A stretch of DNA of 64,000 nucleotides from Pedobacter ureilyticus (GTDB taxonomy: Bacteria > Bacteroidota > Bacteroidia > Sphingobacteriales > Sphingobacteriaceae), in the NCBI RefSeq assembly GCF_005925345.1, contig NZ_SSHJ01000004.1:124001-188000 (forward strand), in the 5' to 3' direction. This document shows, one piece after another, positions 52,651 through 62,315 of the stretch. Below the pieces are notes generated by a model that was given only the letters and a program-made list of their open reading frames with translations, was not told where the DNA came from and did not search any database. Every line of letters begins with the position of its first letter. The stretch's first letter is position 1. A program made the position numbers and the translations under genes.

Positions 52651-53619
52651 TTAGTCCAAAAACTGGCATCTAAAACCTGGAATATCGATGCTAGTATAAT
52701 GGATTTTAAGTACTTTTCTACCTATTAGATCTTTCGTCTTTAGCTTTTCAGGAAAATTTAAGGAGCAATCCGATGATTTTAAAAAATCACTCTGATAAAC
52801 TTTAATCTCAGTTTCATAATGCAGCACTGTAGATGGCAACAAATCAACAGTCAACTTTTTCTCTTCAAATAACCATTCGCTATTTTTGCATTTTTCTATC
52901 AATTCAAACATAAATTTTTTATCGAACACCATTAAATCGTCCAATTTATGGCCCATCTTATCATTGGTATCGTGCTGGTACAAGCTTACTTTAATTTCCT
53001 CTGGAATAAAAATTGTTTTTTGCGAAAGCTGGCTTGCTAAATTCAGCATAATACTTACTTGTGGTTCTTTTATCAAAGCCCTATTCATTGTTTCACTTAG
53101 TACAATATCAACATCATCATTGCGCAATTTGTAAGTGGCAGCATCGGTAATTGTAAAATGCCTAACAAAAGAATTTAACCCCAAAGTGTTTAAAATATAT
53201 TGAAGCATTTTATAACTTTTTGGGTTAATTTCAAGCATTGTAAATTGGACATCTTTAGGCGTTAATAAAGCCATTGCCGGCAACGCTAATGTAGCAAAAG
53301 GGCCTGTGCCAGCATAAAGAACGTGGGCAGGCCTACCTGTATGCTTCTGCCTCACGTGCTGTATGGCCTTAAAAAGCCCTCGTGCAAAACGCTGTGTTCT
53401 AAATATTTCTTTAATGCATTGTGCAGCCCAAAATGTACCAATGGCACTACCACTCTCTGTACTAATATGCTTTCTTTCAAGTTCGGTATTGCCATTAACT
53501 TCTGCTAATTTGTACAACATATCAGCAAGACCCGTAATGGCAGGTGCCAATCCTTCATGAAAATCTCCATCCCTGATTATCGCCTCACAATATTCCTTAA
53601 ATAAGGTTAATTTAGACAT
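52651..53619 (-). CDS. PRMT-like SAM-dependent methyltransferase
   Basis: A 322-residue class I methyltransferase. Motif I is VLYAGTGPFAT (100-110), the acidic end of strand 2 is TMLEINPKS (E130), and motif II/III contains VRHFTITDAATYKL. The loop SETMNRALIKE has two Glu (E176 and E185) nine residues apart, like the double-E loop that binds the guanidinium in protein arginine methyltransferases (for example SEPMGYMLFNE of CARM1). The usual THW loop is not apparent. The gene overlaps the PhyH gene upstream by 8 bases. Predicted protein or peptide methylation; the substrate is unknown. Confidence 0.7.
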   Translation of the reverse strand: MSKLTLFKEYCEAIIRDGDFHEGLAPAITGLADMLYKLAEVNGNTELERKHISTESGSAIGTFWAAQCIKEIFRTQRFARGLFKAIQHVRQKHTGRPAHVLYAGTGPFATLALPAMALLTPKDVQFTMLEINPKSYKMLQYILNTLGLNSFVRHFTITDAATYKLRNDDVDIVLSETMNRALIKEPQVSIMLNLASQLSQKTIFIPEEIKVSLYQHDTNDKMGHKLDDLMVFDKKFMFELIEKCKNSEWLFEEKKLTVDLLPSTVLHYETEIKVYQSDFLKSSDCSLNFPEKLKTKDLIGRKVLKIHYTSIDIPGFRCQFLD

Positions 53620-54574
53620 CCCTATTCGTTTTTTGGAAACTCACATACTGTACAAATCTAGGCAGGTTCGAGTTGTTTGGCGAGGCTGCATGAGGCAAAG
53701 ATTCGAGCCAAATAATTAAATCGCCCTTTTTACCATCTAAATACTTAATCTTTTCAGTTTTTTTAATTTCATCAAGAGCATCTTCAGGATTATGCCTTTT
53801 TAGCAACTCTTCCGCTTTACGATGAAAACCTGGCACTAACGTAAACGCTCCCCTATTTATGGGCACATCATTCAAATACACCAAACCTTGTATATAATAT
53901 TGTGGCCCTAAATTAAAATCAATATCCCAATGCAAATCGCTTCCCTTAAATTTATAGTTAGCCGTTTCTGGTGGATTATAACTCACTTTCTCGCAATTGG
54001 CAATTAAATCTTGGCTCTGATACAGTTGCGAAAATATTTGAAATACCTTCTCGTTTTTTCTAATTTTTTCGATAGCCGCACCCTGATACAGCTGTAACAT
54101 CAATCCTTGAAGCTTATCATGCTGAGGATACCAAGTTGAAGGAAAGCTAATATCAACACCTAACGTTTCACAAATTAGAGCAACTACGTTATCGCAATCT
54201 TCCTCAGAAAAAACGCTACTCAACTGTAAATAACCATTTGCTTCCCAAAAAGCAAGTTCCAAATCGGTGAGCGCATGTACACCTAAAAAATCATCCACAT
54301 TCAGTTTATGCTCATACCACTTGTTAAAGGCAATGCACTTTTGTTGATAAAACTCTTCGCCTTTCAATGTAATCAGCCAGTTTTCAAATTGCAAATCACT
54401 TTTACAATACTGGTACAAAAACTCATAAACTTCGAACAAACCAATCTCAAAAATATTTAAGAAATATCGCTCTGCATTCTGAAAATCTTGATCTAACAAA
54501 ACATTAGCCTCTTGCGGATTTCTTTGCGAACGATAAATACTTAAAAATGGAAAATCGTTAATTAACTCACTCAT
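53612..54574 (-). CDS. PhyH-like Fe(II)/2-oxoglutarate dioxygenase
   Basis: A 320-residue phytanoyl-CoA dioxygenase-type oxygenase. The C-terminal double-stranded beta-helix shows the iron triad H215-x-D217 (LHWDIDF) and H295 (HAASPNNS), with R306 placed to bind 2-oxoglutarate (LPRFVQYVSF). Before it are GYLQLSSVFSEEDCDNVVAL (about 114-133) and NRGAFTLVPGFHRKAEELL; the first 100 residues are extra and helical. Likely hydroxylates a small molecule or peptide side chain. First gene of a leftward two-gene unit with the methyltransferase, divergent from the AspH-type hydroxylase. Confidence 0.8.
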   Translation of the reverse strand: MSELINDFPFLSIYRSQRNPQEANVLLDQDFQNAERYFLNIFEIGLFEVYEFLYQYCKSDLQFENWLITLKGEEFYQQKCIAFNKWYEHKLNVDDFLGVHALTDLELAFWEANGYLQLSSVFSEEDCDNVVALICETLGVDISFPSTWYPQHDKLQGLMLQLYQGAAIEKIRKNEKVFQIFSQLYQSQDLIANCEKVSYNPPETANYKFKGSDLHWDIDFNLGPQYYIQGLVYLNDVPINRGAFTLVPGFHRKAEELLKRHNPEDALDEIKKTEKIKYLDGKKGDLIIWLESLPHAASPNNSNLPRFVQYVSFQKTNRDV

Positions 54575-54676
54575 AAAAAGCTACTTAAAACAAAACAATA
54601 GGTTTACTTTTACATTGTGAAAAGACTTTTCTAATTTAGTTGTAATTACCCATTATTTCTCATAAAAAACACCTCC

Positions 54677-55354
54677 TTGACCGCAATTCAGTTTAACACC
54701 ACTTATGATATCCTTGCGTTAGAAAAAGAACTAGGTATCGCTTTAGCCAGCACCTGGGCAAACCATTACAATATAAAAGACTATAGTGGAGAATGGAAAA
54801 GCATTTCATTAAGATCCGCATCCGGATCATCTTCAGATATTTATGCCAACTATACAGACCAACCCTTTAAAGATACGCCTCTTTTAGCAGAACTTCCTTA
54901 CCTACAATCTGTTTTAGCCGCTTGGAAATGTGAAAAGGAAAGCGTGAGATTTTTAGCCCTTTACCCCGGCAGCGAAATTAAACCGCACAAAGACAAGGGC
55001 TGTAGTTATCAAGATGGCAATTTTAGGTTACACATTCCTGTTGTAACCAATAACAAAGTTGATTTTATTGTAGAGAACCAAAACTATTTCTTAGCACCCG
55101 GAACTTGTTGGTACATGGATTTCTCAAAAGAGCACAGTGTTAGAAATAACGGAGATACAGTAAGAATACATTTAGTAATAGATTGCCTAAGAAACGAATG
55201 GACCGATAAAATTTTCGAAGCCCATGGCTATCAAGATTGCGAAGCTAAAATGTCGATTGATGAAGTTAAACAAGTTATAGCGCAACTGGAAACCCACCAA
55301 ACAGAAGTTGCAAACAACCTCATTAAACAATTAAAAGCAGATTATGGGCTTTAA
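54677..55354 (+). CDS. Aspartyl/asparaginyl beta-hydroxylase family protein
   Basis: A 225-residue 2-oxoglutarate oxygenase of the Asp/Asn beta-hydroxylase type. Active-site segments: FLALYPGSEIKPHKDKG (H104, D106), FRLHIPVVTN (R117), and EHSVRNNGDTVRIHLVIDC (H153, R163, H165). The frame begins with a TTG at 54677; I see no ATG upstream before an in-frame stop at 54632-54634, so the start is uncertain. Its stop overlaps the sulfotransferase start by 11 bases. These enzymes hydroxylate Asp/Asn side chains of proteins or small peptides. Confidence 0.82.
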   Translation: MTAIQFNTTYDILALEKELGIALASTWANHYNIKDYSGEWKSISLRSASGSSSDIYANYTDQPFKDTPLLAELPYLQSVLAAWKCEKESVRFLALYPGSEIKPHKDKGCSYQDGNFRLHIPVVTNNKVDFIVENQNYFLAPGTCWYMDFSKEHSVRNNGDTVRIHLVIDCLRNEWTDKIFEAHGYQDCEAKMSIDEVKQVIAQLETHQTEVANNLIKQLKADYGL

Positions 55355-56297
55355 TCTGAAATATTGGGTACCCTACGAGCTAAAATTTGAGAACGGTGCT
55401 TGGCAATGCTTATGGATTTTTGTGGGCGATCATCATTTTAACGAGCCATTTTTTGATGAAACCATTACTTTATTAAAGGCAAAAAAAGGATCAAATAGGT
55501 TTATTTCTTGTACCAGCTTATCCCTTTTATTGTCTTTAGACACCCCACTAAAAGCTCTTACGCCCCAATCTTTTATTTTTCATGTATCTAGGTGCGGCTC
55601 TACTTTGCTTTCACAAGCTTTATCAACAGAAAAATCTCACATTGTAGTTCCCGAAGCTCCAATTTTTGATCAAATATTAAGGATGCAGGAGCTAGATAAA
55701 AACCTTTCGGAAATTGAGGTAGAAAAAATTTTTAAAAAAGTGGTAGAATGGTACGGGCAAATTAGAACCAATGTCTATCTGCGTTATTTTATCAAGCTAG
55801 ATAGTTGGCACATTCATTTTTACGAGCGGTTACGCAATTGGTATCCAGAAACACCTTTTTATTTTTTGAGCAGAGAACCGGATGCTGTTTTAACCTCGCA
55901 TATTAAAAGAAGAGGTATTCATGCCATACCTGGCTACGTTAACTCAACCTTACTAAAAATCAAATTGACAGAACAACATTATCAAGATTTCAACTACTAT
56001 ACAGAAATAGTGCTTGATAATTTTTACAAAGGATATCTTAATGTTTTAGCAGAACACCACCCATTAAATTACTTTTACGATTACGGCTTCGGAACAAATG
56101 AAATGCTCTATCATTTCTATCAAGAGATACTTGGACAAAACTCAGTGCCAGAAGAAAATTTGCAAAGACTTACCAAGCACAGCAAAGATGCATCAATGAC
56201 ATTTAACGGCGATGAAAGAGTAAGCTATCAAATAAAGCACATCGATGTAACACTTAATTACAATTTATTGTTAGAAAAAATCAGGAATTTATCATGA
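55344..56297 (+). CDS. Sulfotransferase family protein
   Basis: A 317-residue PAPS-dependent sulfotransferase-like protein. The PAPS 5'-phosphosulfate loop is HVSRCGSTLLSQAL (S82 to T87), followed by VVPEAPIFDQILR, and the 3'-phosphate-binding strand is FLSREPDAVLTSHIKRRG (R177, S185). An N-terminal domain of about 75 residues is extra. No signal peptide, so the reaction is cytoplasmic. It overlaps the hydroxylase by 11 bases and the APS kinase by 4 bases (ATGA), so the trio is one operon. Confidence 0.8.
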   Translation: MGFNLKYWVPYELKFENGAWQCLWIFVGDHHFNEPFFDETITLLKAKKGSNRFISCTSLSLLLSLDTPLKALTPQSFIFHVSRCGSTLLSQALSTEKSHIVVPEAPIFDQILRMQELDKNLSEIEVEKIFKKVVEWYGQIRTNVYLRYFIKLDSWHIHFYERLRNWYPETPFYFLSREPDAVLTSHIKRRGIHAIPGYVNSTLLKIKLTEQHYQDFNYYTEIVLDNFYKGYLNVLAEHHPLNYFYDYGFGTNEMLYHFYQEILGQNSVPEENLQRLTKHSKDASMTFNGDERVSYQIKHIDVTLNYNLLLEKIRNLS

Positions 56298-56812
56298 GCA
56301 AGGTAATTCAATTTACGGGCTTATCTGGCGCAGGTAAAACAACTATAGCCACAGCACTTGCTAAAGAACTTATAGTTACAGGTTTAAAAACATTAATTGT
56401 TGATGGCGACGAATTTAGAAGCAAATACGCCCCAGATTTAGGCTTTTCTAATGCCGACAGGTTAGAGAACATCAATCGTATGGCTAATTTTGTTAATGCC
56501 AATAAAGATAGTTACAGTTTAGTTATCATTTCTGCCATTAATCCTTTTAATGAAACCAGAGCAATATTTACTGAAAAATGCCAAGCCCAATTAATTTACA
56601 TAAAATGTAACCTAGATACACTTGTAGAACGAGATACCAAGGGTCTGTACCGTAGGGCCATGCTGCCTCCTAATCATCCAGAGCATTTAGCAAATCTTAC
56701 TGGTGTTAACCAAAATTTTGATGAACCGGCTCCCCATACATTTACCATAGATACGAGTGAAATTTCACTTCAAAATGCAGTAGAAAAAATCAAAAACAGT
56801 ATTTTTAACTGA
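56294..56812 (+). CDS. cysC: Adenylylsulfate (APS) kinase
   Basis: APS kinase makes PAPS, the donor for sulfotransferases. The 172-residue protein has Walker A GLSGAGKTT (9-17), LIVDGDEFR (35-42), LGFSNADRLENINRMA, RDTKGLYRRAM, and LTGVNQNFDEPAPHTFTIDT, matching the family. The segment equivalent to ISPF/ISPY with the phosphorylated Ser of E. coli CysC reads INPF (N82), so that Ser is absent. No ATP sulfurylase or PAPS phosphatase is beside it, so APS must come from elsewhere. Last gene of the hydroxylase-sulfotransferase unit. Confidence 0.85.
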   Translation: MSKVIQFTGLSGAGKTTIATALAKELIVTGLKTLIVDGDEFRSKYAPDLGFSNADRLENINRMANFVNANKDSYSLVIISAINPFNETRAIFTEKCQAQLIYIKCNLDTLVERDTKGLYRRAMLPPNHPEHLANLTGVNQNFDEPAPHTFTIDTSEISLQNAVEKIKNSIFN

Positions 56813-57026
56813 AATATCCGAAATTAGCTCGGAGCCAAGCCAAAATTTTTCGAATTATTTAAAACCTTAAAAAACTCATAAACAGTTACTTAAAAAAAGA
56901 AAATCACATTTGTCCGCTTTTTGTCCTCCCAAAAGTGCTTCGCTATTGTTTTTTGTTAGTAACTTTAATTAAGAATATAACCGAACGCTTAAAACCAAAA
57001 TAAATTTACATTTCACCTCTAAAATA

Positions 57027-57851
57027 ATGACGACACGAAGATCTTTTCTAAAGAAACAGCTCTTGTTGGGTAGTTCCGTATTATTTGCAACGGGTATTGA
57101 CAATACTGCTAAAGCTGCAAAATATATTTATGCGAAAGGTAATCCAAATGCGCTAAACTTATTATGCTCTTCTAAGGTTGAGCATCTTAACAAATGTAGG
57201 CAAACCATCAATAATTTTGAGATGGGAAGTGTAAACCTGTTTGCTGGCAGCATTAGCAATACCAACCAGTTTAACGATTTAACTTACGATTTAAGTAAGG
57301 CCAATTACCACGCCGTTAACTTTAGCTGGCAAAACAGCAAAATTACATCACAAGAAATTGCCAAAATACTTAAAGCAAGCTCCTCTAGTTTTGTAAACTG
57401 TAACTATGCTTTCGAAAATAAGCAATTACAACAAACCATACTCCCTTACCTTATTATTTACAGTGGTAATACAAAAATTGGCATAACGGGCATTGGCGCA
57501 AAAACTACTCACAAAGAAATTGTGTACAAAGATCCTATTGCGGCACTAAACAAGGTTGCCAAGATATTAAAACTAGAACAACACTGCGATAAAGTAATTT
57601 GCTTGGCAGATTTAGGTTTCGATAAAACAGAAGAGCTGAACAACCTTGTACTGGCTCAATCTTCTGCTAACGTAGATATTATAGTTGGTGCAGGCAAAAA
57701 CCCCAGCCAAGCTACAGCCTGGAGCTACAGAAACACCGAAAAACAAGAGGTTTTAATTAGCGCAAATAAAAGCGAACAGCGCCATACCAATCTTTTACAA
57801 CTTAACTTTAATTATAACCAAACTTTAAACTTTAACACTAAAAACATATAA
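57027..57851 (+). CDS. Tat-exported metallophosphatase-like protein lacking metal ligands
   Basis: A 274-residue protein with a twin-arginine signal (MTTRRSFLKKQLLLG). The body follows the N-terminal domain of UshA-type 5'-nucleotidases segment by segment: FVNCNYAFENKQLQQTILPYLIIY (in parts), KIGITGIG, DPIAALNKVAKILK, and VICLADLGFD...DIIVGAGKNPS. But every metal motif is changed: GD to GS (about 73-75), GNHEFD to NFSWQN (about 98-103), SHLG to ADLG (194-197), GGHSHT to GAGKNP (221-226), and the N-terminal DxH is absent. It is probably a binding or structural pseudoenzyme. First gene of a packed four-gene unit. Confidence 0.7.
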   Translation: MTTRRSFLKKQLLLGSSVLFATGIDNTAKAAKYIYAKGNPNALNLLCSSKVEHLNKCRQTINNFEMGSVNLFAGSISNTNQFNDLTYDLSKANYHAVNFSWQNSKITSQEIAKILKASSSSFVNCNYAFENKQLQQTILPYLIIYSGNTKIGITGIGAKTTHKEIVYKDPIAALNKVAKILKLEQHCDKVICLADLGFDKTEELNNLVLAQSSANVDIIVGAGKNPSQATAWSYRNTEKQEVLISANKSEQRHTNLLQLNFNYNQTLNFNTKNI

Positions 57852-57853
57852 TT

Positions 57854-58453
57854 ATGGACGCATTCATCTCATCAATAATCTTATTTGCGGGCAATTTCAA
57901 CCCCAGAAATTGGGCTTTTTGCAGTGGTCAAGTATTAGCTATCGCCCAAAACACCGCTTTATTTTCCCTTTTAGGAACTAATTATGGCGGTAATGGATCA
58001 ACGACGTATGCGTTACCAGATTTACGCGGCAGAACACCAATTGCACCGGGGCAAGGGCCAGGTCTTCCTGCCTATAATTTGGGCGAAATGGCAGGCACAC
58101 CTACTGTAACGTTACTAAGCAACAATATGCCTTTTCATACCCACACCGCTAGTTTGTCTAATTTATCTTCTATCCCGCAAGCGGCAACTGTAGCAGGAGA
58201 CGCCATTACGCCAGAAAATAACTACTTGGCACTTAGCCCTAAAATTGGCTCTGGACCAAATGCTACTCAACTAAAAACTTACGCCACACCAACTACCGCT
58301 ACTGGAAATGTGAAACCAATGGTAGGCAATACCGTTTCAGGCTCGGCAACAAATAGTGCTGTAGGTGGCAATGCGCCCTTTAGCATCATGCAACCTTATT
58401 TAGCTATAAACTACATTATTTGCCAGTTCGGAATTTTCCCTTCTAGAAACTAA
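57854..58453 (+). CDS. Phage tail collar domain protein
   Basis: A 199-residue protein of the tail collar (Mdp-like) family: MDAFISSIILFAGNFNPRNWAFCSGQ (in two parts), LFSLLGTNYGGNGSTTYALPDLRGRTPIAPGQGPGL (in parts), and a C-terminal FSIMQPYLAINYIICQFGIFPS. These motifs match short tail-fibre or collar proteins of phages and their chromosomal relatives in Bacteroidota and other phyla. No signal peptide. It starts 2 bases after the preceding stop, and no other phage genes are nearby. Trimeric fibre function is assumed by analogy. Confidence 0.85.
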   Translation: MDAFISSIILFAGNFNPRNWAFCSGQVLAIAQNTALFSLLGTNYGGNGSTTYALPDLRGRTPIAPGQGPGLPAYNLGEMAGTPTVTLLSNNMPFHTHTASLSNLSSIPQAATVAGDAITPENNYLALSPKIGSGPNATQLKTYATPTTATGNVKPMVGNTVSGSATNSAVGGNAPFSIMQPYLAINYIICQFGIFPSRN

Positions 58454-58460
58454 AATATAA

Positions 58461-59615
58461 ATGAACAAGGCTTTAAAAGTTGGCTTTTTGCTACCCTACT
58501 CTGGTATGTATCCCTTTTATGGGCAACACACCATGGCGGGTATTGCTTGCGCTTTAAATAAAAATAACATCCCTGCTAGTCAATTTAATTTTATGCCTAC
58601 TTATGTGGGAAATGGCGAGCATACTAAGTGCGTTGAAGAAGCAAAAAGACTGATCTTTTTTGAGGGTGTGGACGTATTAATGGGGATGGTAAATATCCAA
58701 GTGATAGAAGAATTAAAGCCTATGCTTCAAAACTTTAACAAATTAGGTTTCTTCTTAGATTTTGGCGAATACATTCCCTCGGCAGCAACTACTGGAGACA
58801 ATGTTTACAGCCTTTCTATGAATTTGTGGCAAAGCCAGTACGCTTTGGGCAAATGGGCGGTAAATGAATTTGGTCCGGCAGGGCAATTAGTGATGCCAAT
58901 TTACGAGGCGGGTTTTAATTTAAATAGCTCTTTTACGGAAGGTGCAGCCGCAGCCGGCTCTACCGGCTTAAATAGTTTCGTGTTGCCTCAAGCTTATGCC
59001 AATAACGAACAGTTAAATTTAGCTCCATTTTTTGAGGCCTTAGAAAAAGAAACACCAAACTTTGTACATGCCATATTTTCGGGCAAAATGGCCAACCAGT
59101 TTTTATGGCAATGGAGGCAATCTAGGTTTTATGATACCGTACCCTTAATTGTGGTAGAAAACATGGCCTATAATGAAGCTCTATTTGAGGTAGAAGACAT
59201 GAACATTAAAATGTACAGTGCTAGATCTTGGCATAGAGATATGCAAAGTAAAGCCAACAAAGATTTTGTAAAAAAATTTGAAGATTTCGGCAAGCAAGAT
59301 GCGAATGTTTTTGCCATGATGGGCTACGAAGCAGGTTTAGCGCTAGCTCACATGTTACCACAATTATTAAAAGGAGATGCCGCAGAAGCTGTTTACCAAT
59401 TGAATAAAAAAGGCATAGAAGGGCCACGAGGTTTAATAGGCCATCAAACTATGGGCATCAATGCTTATCATCCAATTGATATTGTTAAAATACAAACTAC
59501 CAAACCAAGAACACTACAAACCATCCTAGCATCAGAAACCGCATTTGGCTTTGATACTACAGACGTGATCGAAAACACACAAAGCGGATGGCTTAACCCG
59601 TATATTTCTGTTTAA
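58461..59615 (+). CDS. Periplasmic-binding-protein-like fold without signal peptide
   Basis: A 384-residue protein of the type I periplasmic-binding fold, like ABC transporter substrate-binding proteins for amino acids: KVGFLLPYSGMYPFYGQHTMAGIACAL, FFEGVDVLMGMVNIQVIEELKP, and FYDTVPLIVVENMAYNEALFE (parts). The first residues MNKALKVGFLLPYSG have no signal sequence, so the binding domain starts right at the N-terminus, unlike exported relatives. There are no permease or ATPase genes beside it. It may be a cytosolic sensor or be exported with its partners. Gap of 7 bases to the collar gene. Confidence 0.8.
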   Translation: MNKALKVGFLLPYSGMYPFYGQHTMAGIACALNKNNIPASQFNFMPTYVGNGEHTKCVEEAKRLIFFEGVDVLMGMVNIQVIEELKPMLQNFNKLGFFLDFGEYIPSAATTGDNVYSLSMNLWQSQYALGKWAVNEFGPAGQLVMPIYEAGFNLNSSFTEGAAAAGSTGLNSFVLPQAYANNEQLNLAPFFEALEKETPNFVHAIFSGKMANQFLWQWRQSRFYDTVPLIVVENMAYNEALFEVEDMNIKMYSARSWHRDMQSKANKDFVKKFEDFGKQDANVFAMMGYEAGLALAHMLPQLLKGDAAEAVYQLNKKGIEGPRGLIGHQTMGINAYHPIDIVKIQTTKPRTLQTILASETAFGFDTTDVIENTQSGWLNPYISV

Positions 59616-59625
59616 CAAGAAGATT

Positions 59626-62139
59626 ATGAAAAAACTTTACACAAAAATAGTTTTTATTGCTTTCCTTATTCTTTCTAGTACTTTGTCTTATGCACAGTAT
59701 ACTGCAAGCAATTTAGAAACCGGAAATCAAAATGTGGCTTTAGCTAAAGATGCTATTGGGAATATATACACTACTCGTTTTCAGGCTGCAGGTTTATATA
59801 AAGTGGTAAAGTATACCAACGGCACAGGCACCCCTACTGATATTTACACGGGCCTCGTAGCCGATGGCGGAGATTTTCCATTGGGCTTAGCTATTGCAGG
59901 AAATGGAGATATTTATATAGCTACCAGCTTTTCTGATGGCAATGGAAAAATTATTAGATTAAACGCTAGCAGTAGTTACGCAGCCACCACTGTTCAAACT
60001 GGCAGGTATTTTACGGGTTTGGCCTTTGATAATCAAGATAGGTTATATGCGCTAGAGTACAATGCTGGCGCCGGCAAATATGCTGTAGTAAGATATAGCA
60101 CCCCAGCCACAGCAAATAGCGCAGGCGCTTCGCTATATGCGGATATCGCTAGTGATTTAGGCCTGTCTTACCCAACCAGCATATCAGTAGCTACAGACGG
60201 CACTGTTTATTTTAACAATATTTTTAACACTGATGGCGGCACCACTTACAAAGGTGGAATTGTAAAGTTAACTACCACCAATGGCACCAGCTATACCAAA
60301 TCTGACTTGAATAACACCAATTATACATCTGCGTTATTTGTTGACGAATTTAACAATCTGTACGCCATAGAAGCGCCAGCATCAACCTATAAATTGTATA
60401 AATATACTAACGGAACAGGTACAGGTGTTGAATTTTATTCTGCAGCTTTTGCTGCCAGCTATCCATACTTAGCTTATGGCGTAACGGCACATAACAACAC
60501 GGTTTTTGCTATTGATGGCGATAATGGAAGTAGCGGCAGCCGCTTGCTGAAACTTACGCCTACCGATGTTACGCCACCCTCGGTACCTACAGGTTTAACT
60601 GCAACCCCTTTAGGTGGCGCAAAAATAGTGCTCAATTGGACTGCGAACAATGCGTCAGAAGGCATATCGGGCTATCGCATTTATGGTGGTACAACAGCCA
60701 ACCCTACTACGCTTATTGCTTCGGTAGCTAACGGAACTACCACTTATACACATACGGGTTTAGTTAATGCACAACAATACTTTTATAAAGTTTCTGCGGT
60801 GGATATCTACTTTAACGAAGGCGGAAAATCAGCTGATCAAACTGCTACCACAGCAAAACCTGTAATAAACAATGCCTCTTATAACGCCAATACCAAAGTA
60901 CTTACAGTAACTGGCACAAATTTCTTGGCACTAACGGGTGCAAACAACGATATAAGCGTAGCTAAGCTTACCATAACTGGCGAAGGGGGAACCACAAGAG
61001 TACTGAGCACTAGCGATGTAGAAATTACCAACGCAACTACTTTTAGCTTAACTTTAAACGCAGCAGATCTGTTAGTTCTAAATCCAATTATCAATAGAAA
61101 TGGAAATTTTTCTACGGGCAACACAACGTATAATTTGGCTGTAGCTAACGGCTGGGCAGCTGGAGAAGATGTAAGCATAAACACAGCGCAGGCTACCATT
61201 GCCTTAGCAGTAAGCAACGTACCTAAACCCACAATTACCGACGTTGCCTACAACGGGCAAACGGCTGTTATGGTGGTAACTGGCTCTAATTTTTACAGGC
61301 TTAATGGCAACACCAATGATATCGACGCTACTAAACTTACTTTCACAGGCGAAAATGGTATGACCTATACGCTACAGTCTACTCCGAACGTAGAAATTAC
61401 AAGCAATACCTCGTTTACTTTAACTTTAAGCAATACCGATAAGTACAATCTATCAAGCGTACTTAATAAAAATGGAGCAAGCTCTGTAAGTAACCACACG
61501 TACAATGTTGCCGCTGCTGATCGCTGGAATGCTGGTGCTGATCCATCCTCATCAATAGCAGATTTGACTAACAATACGGTTATAGTTTCTAATTATGTTG
61601 ACTACGTATTACCAATTGAATTGGTTAATTTTTCTTACCAAATAGGTAATAACGAGATCGTGTTGAATTGGAGTACAAGTACTGAAGTTAACAACAAAGA
61701 GTTTAGGTTAGCTAGGTCTGTTAACGGAACAACGTTTACACCTCTGGCCACTGTAAATGGAATTGGCAATAGCAATACCCTACAAAATTACACTTACACA
61801 GATAAAAACCCAATTTTAGGCACATCATACTACAAGCTAACTCAAATAGATAATGATAATATAGTTAAACTAGAAAGAATTATACCTGTTAGTTATAGCG
61901 TTTCCTCTACAGAGGTTACCATTTATCCAAATCCGGTTTCCGAAACGCTTAACATACAAAACAGTACTAACAGATATAATAAAGCAACATTGTCTGATAT
62001 AAGTGGTAAAGTTTTGGGCCGTTATAACCTAAGCGCCGATGTTACTCAAATCAATGTCAGCAAACTTGCAAAAGGTGTATATATACTAAGCCTAAGCGGC
62101 GACAATAATAACACCGTTAAGAAAATAATAAAAAACTAA
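59626..62139 (+). CDS. T9SS-sorted surface protein with propeller-like and Ig-like repeats
   Basis: An 837-residue exported protein. Signal peptide (1-23, ending SYAQ); about 25-310 are NHL/propeller-like repeats (e.g. GDIYIATSFSDGNGKIIRLN); about 320-405 a fibronectin type III-like domain (PPSVPTGLTATPLGGAKIVLNW); then two tandem copies of a 115-residue domain (about 411-525 and 526-645), each with a GTNF-x-x-L/GSNF-x-x-L start, NDI-x-x-x-KLT, VEIT, and TYN-x-A elements; and a type A T9SS sorting domain (about 750-837, VTIYPNPVSETLNI). Last gene of the packed unit (10-base gap). Likely the surface-displayed product. Confidence 0.85.
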   Translation: MKKLYTKIVFIAFLILSSTLSYAQYTASNLETGNQNVALAKDAIGNIYTTRFQAAGLYKVVKYTNGTGTPTDIYTGLVADGGDFPLGLAIAGNGDIYIATSFSDGNGKIIRLNASSSYAATTVQTGRYFTGLAFDNQDRLYALEYNAGAGKYAVVRYSTPATANSAGASLYADIASDLGLSYPTSISVATDGTVYFNNIFNTDGGTTYKGGIVKLTTTNGTSYTKSDLNNTNYTSALFVDEFNNLYAIEAPASTYKLYKYTNGTGTGVEFYSAAFAASYPYLAYGVTAHNNTVFAIDGDNGSSGSRLLKLTPTDVTPPSVPTGLTATPLGGAKIVLNWTANNASEGISGYRIYGGTTANPTTLIASVANGTTTYTHTGLVNAQQYFYKVSAVDIYFNEGGKSADQTATTAKPVINNASYNANTKVLTVTGTNFLALTGANNDISVAKLTITGEGGTTRVLSTSDVEITNATTFSLTLNAADLLVLNPIINRNGNFSTGNTTYNLAVANGWAAGEDVSINTAQATIALAVSNVPKPTITDVAYNGQTAVMVVTGSNFYRLNGNTNDIDATKLTFTGENGMTYTLQSTPNVEITSNTSFTLTLSNTDKYNLSSVLNKNGASSVSNHTYNVAAADRWNAGADPSSSIADLTNNTVIVSNYVDYVLPIELVNFSYQIGNNEIVLNWSTSTEVNNKEFRLARSVNGTTFTPLATVNGIGNSNTLQNYTYTDKNPILGTSYYKLTQIDNDNIVKLERIIPVSYSVSSTEVTIYPNPVSETLNIQNSTNRYNKATLSDISGKVLGRYNLSADVTQINVSKLAKGVYILSLSGDNNNTVKKIIKN

Positions 62140-62195: not shown

Positions 62196-62315
62196 CACAC
62201 AAAAGAGGCTGCCTCAAAAGTTGCTCATCATATCGAAGGGTAGAAAGGGATTTCTTCTCCCTCGATTGTTGAAATGATGGTATTACCTTACCTTTGAGGC
62301 AGCTTCTGTTGTGTT
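62196..62315. mobile_element. MITE-like element, diverged copy
   Basis: ACACAAAAGAGGCTGCCTC and CTTTGAGGCAGCTTCTGTTG form near-perfect inverted termini, with a TCATATCGAAGG...TTGTTGAAATGATGG inner palindrome, as in 27961-28100. The two copies share ends and interior layout but differ throughout. Confidence 0.65.

Follow-up and report, generated by a model that had tools for sequence, protein, structure and literature searches.

We propose that the locus described here forms a protein-tailoring cassette acting on a protein with a phage tail collar domain (hereafter the collar), which would be hydroxylated and sulfated at its C-terminus and would receive further marks from a PhyH-like oxygenase and a PRMT-like methyltransferase; judging from the sequences, we give this reading a probability of roughly 0.56. 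The nine-gene arrangement reported by an earlier, sequence-only reading of the window (the whole stretch of 64,000 nucleotides analysed, in which open reading frames from about 70-80 aa upward were considered) was confirmed, with a leftward pair overlapping by 8 bases, a rightward trio with overlaps of 11 and 4 bases and, 214 bases past the trio, a four-gene unit with gaps of 2, 7 and 10 bases. Promoter-like sites at the locus did not exceed shuffled controls, and terminator-like sites were fewer than in the shuffles. The features are as follows.

52651..53619, minus strand: PRMT-like methyltransferase; no Pfam match, predicted fold PRMT
53612..54574, minus strand: PhyH-like 2OG-Fe(II) oxygenase (PF05721, 1e-12)
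54677..55354, plus strand: ASPH, a PF05118 2OG-Fe(II) hydroxylase with a TTG start (PF05118, 5e-20)
55344..56297, plus strand: sulfotransferase-like protein, SULT (Sulfotransfer_3, 0.004, below cut-off)
56294..56812, plus strand: APS kinase, APSK (PF01583, 2e-32)
57027..57851, plus strand: metallophosphatase-like protein (UshA-like NCBIfam, 1.5e-6)
57854..58453, plus strand: collar protein, 199 aa, C-terminus FPSRN (PF07484, 3e-26, from residue 7)
58439..58450, plus strand: codons for the final four collar residues Pro-Ser-Arg-Asn, the modification site predicted from sequence
58461..59615, plus strand: Peripla_BP_6-like protein (Peripla_BP_6, 2e-20)
59626..62139, plus strand: T9SS-type protein, exported, 837 aa (Por_Secre_tail, 1.5e-13; fn3; sorting domain)

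The sequence-only reading had proposed the modification of a secreted or fibre-like protein, with either the collar or the T9SS protein as substrate. Linkage, co-occurrence in trans, gene fusions and a match between ASPH and the C-terminal Asn of the collar favour the former and strongly support the conclusion that the enzymes serve this fibre-like protein. Recurrence of the enzymes beside collar genes was indeed found in relatives: ASPH is present in 42 of the 251 host-family genomes and lies within 10 kb of a collar gene in 39 of these 42, and a collar gene is carried by 42/42 ASPH-positive genomes against 44/209 of the others. The same tendency is seen in a sample of 247 Bacteroidota genomes, about a quarter of which (63/247) have collar-domain matches, with a collar in 14/15 ASPH-positive genomes against 49/232 others, counts inflated by kinship since 8 of the 15 belong to one genus; the exception is a weak ASPH match (86 bits) in the collar-negative genome G294. 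All 35 genomes of the chosen ASPH loci are likewise collar-positive, 33 of them without a collar gene in the fetched flank. Full-length matches to the cassette-type PhyH fall in collar-positive genomes in 42/42 cases, as do strong matches to the PRMT-like protein in 25/25, both often unlinked to the collar gene, and the figure for the other PhyH subfamily is 12/25. Exceptions are a 64-residue PhyH fragment in the collar-negative G242 (78.5 bits, with a per-residue score like the cassette type, counted in neither PhyH group) and a 26th PRMT-like match, weak and broken, in the collar-negative G113. Fusions join ASPH to SULT in 4 genomes, APSK to PhyH at 5 loci and ASPH to an HExxH partner in 3 genomes; an ASPH of G475 within an 809-aa open frame was discarded as a fusion, being by its look just a long frame in GC-rich DNA. 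That the genes simply travel as an island, their association carrying no functional meaning, would fit the usual proximity of the enzymes to the collar gene and the inflation of counts by kinship, but we regard it as very improbable, given that PhyH, the PRMT-like protein and sometimes SULT lie far from the collar and yet full-length matches are never seen without it, and given the several fusions and the correlation with the collar tail.

The presence of ASPH predicts the last residue of the collar, which is a new observation. Among collar genes scored above a floor of 60 bits, an -Arg-Asn end is found in 42/42 ASPH-positive host-family genomes, whereas any Asn end occurs in 6 of the 29 ASPH-negative genomes examined (from 44 with a collar, short forms of 87-97 aa and some long collar genes being left out); four of these six end in -RN, and none of the six has an ASPH-like gene at E 0.1. 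Of the 86 collar genes retrieved for the ASPH-positive genomes, 7 have an end other than Asn. In a residue scan with a floor of 130 bits, the terminal Asn is the top column (78/85 vs 12/48, p 2e-15); no other column of the collar alignment tracks ASPH nearly so well, the next (2e-5) being ten orders of magnitude weaker. Outside the host family, among collar genes of 150-262 aa not cut by contig ends, the -RN end is present in 12/12 and 26/26 ASPH-positive genomes (26 of the 35 genomes of chosen ASPH loci having been fetched) against 4/24 ASPH-negative ones (24 of 48 collar genomes being usable), and any Asn end in 9/24 ASPH-negative genomes of the phylum sample. With the same 130-bit floor, nine well-supported independent pairs on the tree gave 6 changes in the same direction, 0 in the opposite one and 3 without difference (median p 0.03). 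It can be envisaged that ASPH and SULT modify the collar at another residue, the C-terminal Asn serving as a recognition handle or being selected by the same assembly partner. The tail Pro is conserved at 100% with and without ASPH, and the Arg largely so (96% vs 78%; Ser 82% vs 39%, in a comparison with just 18 ASPH-negative sequences), and the closest solved relatives of ASPH act, by name, on proline; since the last residue alone tracks ASPH at such strength, we consider this variant rather unlikely.

The assignment of ASPH to PF05118 is clear (72.5 bits, cut-off 22.6), and H104xD106, H153 and R163, which we take to be the iron ligands and the 2OG-binding Arg, are invariant in 27 aligned rows and aligned with 4p7w. 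This L-proline cis-4-hydroxylase is the best PDB match (2e-18), and the nearest solved structures carry the names proline hydroxylase or oxidase, enzymes that use a free amino acid; it is on account of these relatives that a grip of ASPH on a C-terminal carboxylate is plausible, and from the sequence comparisons its predicted site of action is the C-terminal Asn of the collar or a residue next to it. A phage origin of ASPH was not retained, the matches in 3 phage records being merely partial (34-35% identity over less than half of the protein). The kinship with proline hydroxylases, weak NCBIfam matches to a non-proteinogenic amino acid hydroxylase and to LpxO, and the relation of the collar's neighbour to amino-acid-binding proteins would also suit a hydroxylated, sulfated small molecule or lipid carried by the collar or the binding protein, with the collar itself unmodified. 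Such a product would give no reason for the last collar residue to track ASPH, and no biosynthetic core gene was recognised among the recurrent clusters (many of them unannotated; one, at 8 loci, ABC ATPase-like), which makes this alternative decidedly unlikely.

For the second step, SULT carries an SRCGSTL motif, invariant in 12 rows, which we take to be the 5' PAPS-binding loop; it has no curated family match (PF13469, 17.8 bits against a cut-off of 27) and is therefore named sulfotransferase-like. It is found in 38/251 host-family genomes, all 38 of which are ASPH-positive, a nesting that is partly linkage since SULT mostly adjoins ASPH. The predicted role of SULT is sulfation of the collar tail once this has been hydroxylated. 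The APS kinase, the sole PF01583 match in the whole Pedobacter genome, would supply the PAPS, a prediction with which the distribution of such kinases is consistent: counted by hand, one is present anywhere in the genome in 23/24 SULT-positive genomes against 22/177 others.

The PhyH-like oxygenase retains H215xD217, H295 and R306 as invariant residues of its alignment and is a predicted second collar hydroxylase. The residue scan for PhyH placed the terminal collar residue in its top column, as for ASPH, a result that the overlap of the two enzymes would yield anyway. The PRMT-like protein has a structure model of pLDDT 87, with PRMT7/5/9 as nearest folds, and an invariant E176 and E185 at a spacing that we take to be that of the PRMT1 double-Glu loop. 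Methylation of the collar is its predicted role, the tail Arg being one candidate site; the scan of the collar alignment gave no convincing column for it. As for the HExxH partner fused to some ASPH proteins, its profile found no credible relative in the PDB (one match, E 2) and one member gave nothing in Pfam; a peptidase and an oxygenase are equally possible, since alphaKG-HExxH hydroxylases are known.

The collar itself is homologous to T4 gp12 in the PDB (1e-4) and has an invariant HxH (H95/H97); its monomer model was poor (pLDDT 57, pTM 0.29) and was set aside. By hydropathy and eye, neither the collar nor the locus enzymes have a recognisable signal peptide. The first 12 residues of the collar score 1.94, slightly above the metallophosphatase-like protein (1.80), whose N-terminus is by eye twin-arginine-like and whose gene is present at 18/80 ASPH loci; the collar is called leaderless because its Pfam domain begins at residue 7 and a basic start is absent. 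The Peripla_BP_6-like protein, found in 26/100 collar-centred regions, also has no recognisable signal peptide and carries a conserved W-x-N-x-Y-like motif at its C-terminus. The T9SS protein combines a Por_Secre_tail sorting domain with an N-terminus that is, by hydropathy, hydrophobic and signal-like (Sec-type), both features of T9SS cargo, and is a possible surface partner of the collar. That it is itself the substrate could be argued from its gene closing the collar unit and from the recurrence of large proteins downstream of collar genes (a same-strand open reading frame of at least 700 aa within 4 kb downstream in 51/85 regions, upstream in 12/85). PAPS and 2OG chemistry is nevertheless cytoplasmic, the Sec-type N-terminus has no counterpart on the enzymes, and the large proteins split into several separate clusters, so that on grounds of compartment this part of the sequence-only reading was given up as highly unlikely. 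Two other identities found no support and were rejected: a prophage, tailocin or contractile injection system (of 15 window proteins compared with PHROGs, just the collar and the T9SS protein, the latter in its fn3 region, gave tail matches) and an anti-phage defence system (PADLOC on 9 proteins matched the APS kinase alone, weakly; mad8 2e-6, VakA 1e-5).

From gene order, protein families, co-inheritance, fusions and the tail correlation, we infer the reactions of the cassette, their order and site, and its surface role. The collar would fold in the cytoplasm, as the want of a recognisable signal peptide suggests, probably as a trimer by analogy with phage tail fibres. ASPH, a 2-oxoglutarate/iron oxygenase, would hydroxylate its tail, most likely at the terminal Asn or a neighbour in Phe/Tyr-Pro-Ser-Arg-Asn, after which SULT would move sulfate onto the new hydroxyl from PAPS that the APS kinase of the cassette provides. 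Further marks may come from the PhyH-like oxygenase and the PRMT-like methyltransferase, and the decorated collar would then work with the adjoining large exported protein. More tentatively, it can be surmised that this is a widespread bacterial pathway in which the C-terminal Asn becomes a sulfated hydroxy-asparagine beside a methylated Arg, giving cellular fibre tips a defined sulfated end, with ASPH as gatekeeper, and in which lineages lacking ASPH use other end residues (often Pro), maybe with enzymes of their own. The proposal thereby names a substrate, singles out a candidate residue in it and predicts the order of the reactions; if it is true, a C-terminal hydroxylation-sulfation step would be added to bacterial protein chemistry, a bacterial PRMT-like family would gain a function and there would be a way into the role of fibre-like collar proteins.

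Among the matches listed for the open-access literature, there was no description of an association of these enzymes with collar genes or of tailoring of the collar end, and no mechanism for cellular collar-domain proteins. Known PF05118 enzymes have free amino acid or others as substrates; the ASPH of the locus shares fold family and metal and 2OG ligands with L-proline cis-4-hydroxylase (4p7w) and other members, from which it differs in that its family tracks a protein C-terminus. With eukaryotic PRMT5/7/9 the PRMT-like protein has in common the predicted fold and the double-Glu loop, but it is bacterial and only ~10-15% identical. The collar shares its domain with the short tail fibre gp12 of phage T4 and matches PHROGs tail families, whereas it is bacterial and has no recognisable phage structural genes adjoining. 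A cellular operon with such a domain is RhiABCD of Rhizobium, whose RhiB has a phage tail collar domain and may act in plant interaction; modification enzymes are not mentioned for it in the part of the source consulted (PMC13133039). In Xanthomonas, RaxX is a 60-residue precursor, Tyr-sulfated by the RaxX/RaxST system and predicted to leave by type I export, and RaxQ is named an APS kinase in the title of a paper cited there (PMC6637879, in part). Judged on those portions, the locus resembles RaxX/RaxST/RaxP/RaxQ in its bacterial sulfotransferase, PAPS and ribosomal product (here predicted), and differs in that no RaxAB-like type I exporter was recognised among its nine open reading frames, that the predicted substrate is the 199-aa collar and that sulfation is predicted to depend on the hydroxylase. 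The pathway of the RiPP nitrilobacillin, described in a preprint (PMC13060819, again in part), requires beta-hydroxylation near a C-terminal Asp-Asn before the next enzyme can act, and its accessory hydroxylase is partly conserved; its pes cluster has, in the passages available, a short precursor peptide, an MNIO, an alphaKG-HExxH enzyme and a nitrile synthetase, with no mention of sulfation. Compared with RiPP pathways, the predicted substrate of the locus is a domain protein of 199 aa.

The nine open reading frames at 52651..62139 of the window, their overlaps of 8, 11 and 4 bases, the 214-base interval and the gaps of 2, 7 and 10 bases agree with the sequence-only reading. The rightward genes are a trio, the PF05118 2OG-Fe(II) hydroxylase (ASPH), a sulfotransferase-like protein (SULT) and an APS kinase, and a four-gene unit, comprising a metallophosphatase-like protein (MPP), the 199-residue PF07484 tail collar protein (57854..58453, ending in FPSRN with Asn199 last), a Peripla_BP_6-like protein (PBP) and the exported T9SS protein; a PhyH-like oxygenase and a PRMT-like methyltransferase are leftward. 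The flanking genes of the locus in the window, a sigma factor, a vWA-domain-like protein, DUF4197 and a DegQ-like protease (the vWA and DegQ names being our reading), look ordinary, and a search of PHROGs returned no phage structural match for them. Downstream of the T9SS gene, an imperfect inverted repeat (arms of 25 nt, 68 nt apart; 62197-62314) looks like a small, MITE-like mobile element.

Among the genomes sampled, one per species, ASPH is found in 42 of 251 Sphingobacteriaceae (7 of 25 genera) and the collar in 86, the collar being present in all 42 ASPH-positive genomes as against 44 of the 209 ASPH-negative ones (Fisher 6e-24, kinship ignored). The recurrence beside collar genes that the sequence-only reading had proposed as a check is borne out for the hydroxylase, which lies within 10 kb of a collar gene in 39 of the 42 genomes (a hand count from two tables); of the remaining three pairs, two are split between contigs (G218, G004) and one, in G121, is genuinely separated. 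Of the 247 genomes in a phylum sample, 15 carry ASPH (8 of them from one genus); 14 of the 15 also have a collar, as against 49 of the 232 others, and the single exception is G294, whose ASPH match, at 86 bits, is much the weakest. A collar match was also present somewhere in each of 35 genomes that we chose from those of the fetched ASPH loci, 33 without a collar in the fetched flank and 2 with one. On the strength of these counts in family, phylum and chosen genomes, ASPH tracks the collar both in trans and in cis. Partial ASPH matches (34-35% identity, less than half of the protein) were seen in Limnohabitans phage DC33 (PQ492659.1) and Mycobacterium phage LilMcDreamy (NC_051582.1).

The wider neighbourhood was counted as ORF clusters in the best 80 of the 232 ASPH loci found, from named genomes, the window excluded and with flanks up to 10 kb; the counts are lower bounds, many flanks ending with the contig and fused ORFs being counted once. 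SULT recurs in at least 57 loci, APS kinase in at least 35, PhyH in at least 30, the collar in at least 30 (often as two or three tandem copies), a HExxH protein in at least 29, a formyltransferase-like protein in at least 20, MPP in at least 18, PBP in at least 17, and PRMT-like and PKHD-type oxygenase genes in at least 5 each. Loci with a collar come from Pedobacter, Sphingobacterium, Emticicia, Pseudarcicella and a number of unnamed Bacteroidetes. Beyond the phylum, they come from two Collimonas (L083, L090); there, in place of a T9SS protein, a giant gene, filamentous-haemagglutinin-like in our reading of its N terminus, is close to the ASPH-SULT pair and the -RN collar. The HExxH protein (HEAGH, 160-170 residues, e.g. 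L056:10692-11222; 29 of the 80 loci) was not seen at the window's locus and yielded no Pfam or credible PDB relatives; it is a candidate metallopeptidase or alphaKG-HExxH-type oxygenase. The formyltransferase protein (PF00551/PF02911; L044:14634-15575), near collar genes in 25 of 100 collar-centred regions, ASPH-positive and ASPH-negative, is possibly another collar-modifying enzyme. A same-strand ORF of at least 700 residues lies within 4 kb downstream of the collar in 51 of 85 regions and upstream in 12. PBP (58461-59615) and its homologues look cytoplasmic and mostly end, with or without ASPH, in a W-x-N-x-Y-like motif, a candidate docking or sorting signal.

All 38 SULT-positive family genomes carry ASPH, one SULT call (G165) resting on a weak 98-bit match; the SULT genes of G192 and G231 are far from ASPH and adjoin an APS kinase. 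An APS kinase was counted in 23 of the 24 SULT-positive genomes as against 22 of 177 others (hand count in a 201-genome sample, which we take to be G000-G200); in several SULT-positive genomes it does not adjoin SULT and may serve other needs. Matches to the cassette PhyH subfamily (from about 303 bits upwards) come from 42 family genomes, all collar-positive and 37 ASPH-positive, and a second group of PhyH genes (at most 132 bits), as internal control, is collar-positive in 12 of 25 (p 0.18). A 64-residue PhyH match in collar-negative G242 (78.5 bits, G242:C62:397-588), per residue like the cassette type and left out of both groups, counts against this association; a remnant, a contig-end fragment and a real counter-example are the candidate explanations. 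The 25 family genomes with a PRMT-like gene (about 253 bits or more) are all collar-positive; one further match, the 26th, has an inner stop and comes from collar-negative G113 (113 bits). PhyH and PRMT-like genes often show no linkage to the collar, and the pair that they form in the window recurs elsewhere (G170). Single ORFs join ASPH with SULT (L073, L081, L106, G100), ASPH with the HExxH protein (G061, G212, G453) and APS kinase with PhyH (L068-L071, L075); the hydroxylase-sulfotransferase fusion is consistent with consecutive steps on one substrate.

The collar tail differs with ASPH. Every ASPH-positive family genome (42/42) has at least one collar ending in -Arg-Asn, and 79 of the 86 collars fetched from them end in Asn, as against 7 of 52 from ASPH-negative genomes (29 of the 44 collar-positive ones were covered), these 7 coming from six genomes, four with -RN. 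The commonest end in the ASPH-negative set is Pro (24/52), which may have its own enzymes; -Arg-Pro collars at L203, L206 and L207, ASPH-negative loci, have their own recurrent layout with the formyltransferase, a giant protein and two other recurrent genes. In a residue scan of 133 aligned collars the terminal position is the best column for ASPH (78/85 against 12/48, p 2e-15; next column p 2e-5; kinship ignored); these counts differ from the 79 of 86 and 7 of 52 above because the scan reads a column of the alignment and sets its score limit higher. Beyond the family, all 12 ASPH-positive phylum genomes have the -RN end, as against 4 of 24 ASPH-negative ones (24 of 48 had usable collar genes), 9 of these 24 having some Asn end; the 26 genomes of ASPH loci that were fetched all have it too, and at least two of them (G518, G525) coincide with G332 and G004 of the other sets. 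A collar tree computed with the tail left out shows 25 changes of ASPH status, 9 of them required by well-supported branches; across nine independent well-supported pairs the tail changes the same way in six, the opposite way in none and shows no difference in three (medians over pairings), a modest result (sign test, median p 0.03). A search at E 0.1 gave no ASPH-like gene in the six family genomes that have an Asn end without ASPH, and these stand as exceptions; among them, G057 is closely related to the ASPH-positive G078, and one of the three G057 tails has been altered to Asp, consistent with recent loss. In at least one genome two collar clusters (L172, L173) differ in that only one has the -RN end.

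PAPS and 2OG chemistry is cytoplasmic, as the cassette enzymes and the collar are predicted to be, so the collar would be within reach and the Sec-exported T9SS protein would not. Of the two substrates that the sequence-only reading had put forward, the collar, whose tail tracks ASPH, is retained and the T9SS protein is judged unlikely. We propose the most economical chain as the probable mechanism, inferring each reaction, the order and the site: ASPH would hydroxylate the collar tail at or beside Asn199, SULT, fed by APS kinase, would place a sulfate on the new hydroxyl, and PhyH and the PRMT-like protein would add other marks. An oxygenase akin to free-amino-acid hydroxylases could hold the terminal residue of a protein via its carboxylate. 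A terminal hydroxy-Asn sulfate, if confirmed, would to our knowledge be a new modification.

Three known systems bear comparison, as far as the available parts of their descriptions go. Bacterial protein sulfation with PAPS supply is described for RaxX-RaxST (PMC6637879); in the nitrilobacillin pathway hydroxylation is a gatekeeper beside a C-terminal Asn, and its enzymes, too, co-occur some strictly and some loosely (PMC13060819); and the cellular collar protein RhiB may take part in plant interaction (PMC13133039). None of the three brings together, in those parts of the open-access literature, a collar substrate with hydroxylation, sulfation and a PRMT, and the proposed collar cassette can therefore be regarded as a new form of ribosomal-product tailoring: dedicated tailoring of such a product is already known in kind, and the combination predicted here is, among the open-access papers listed, new.
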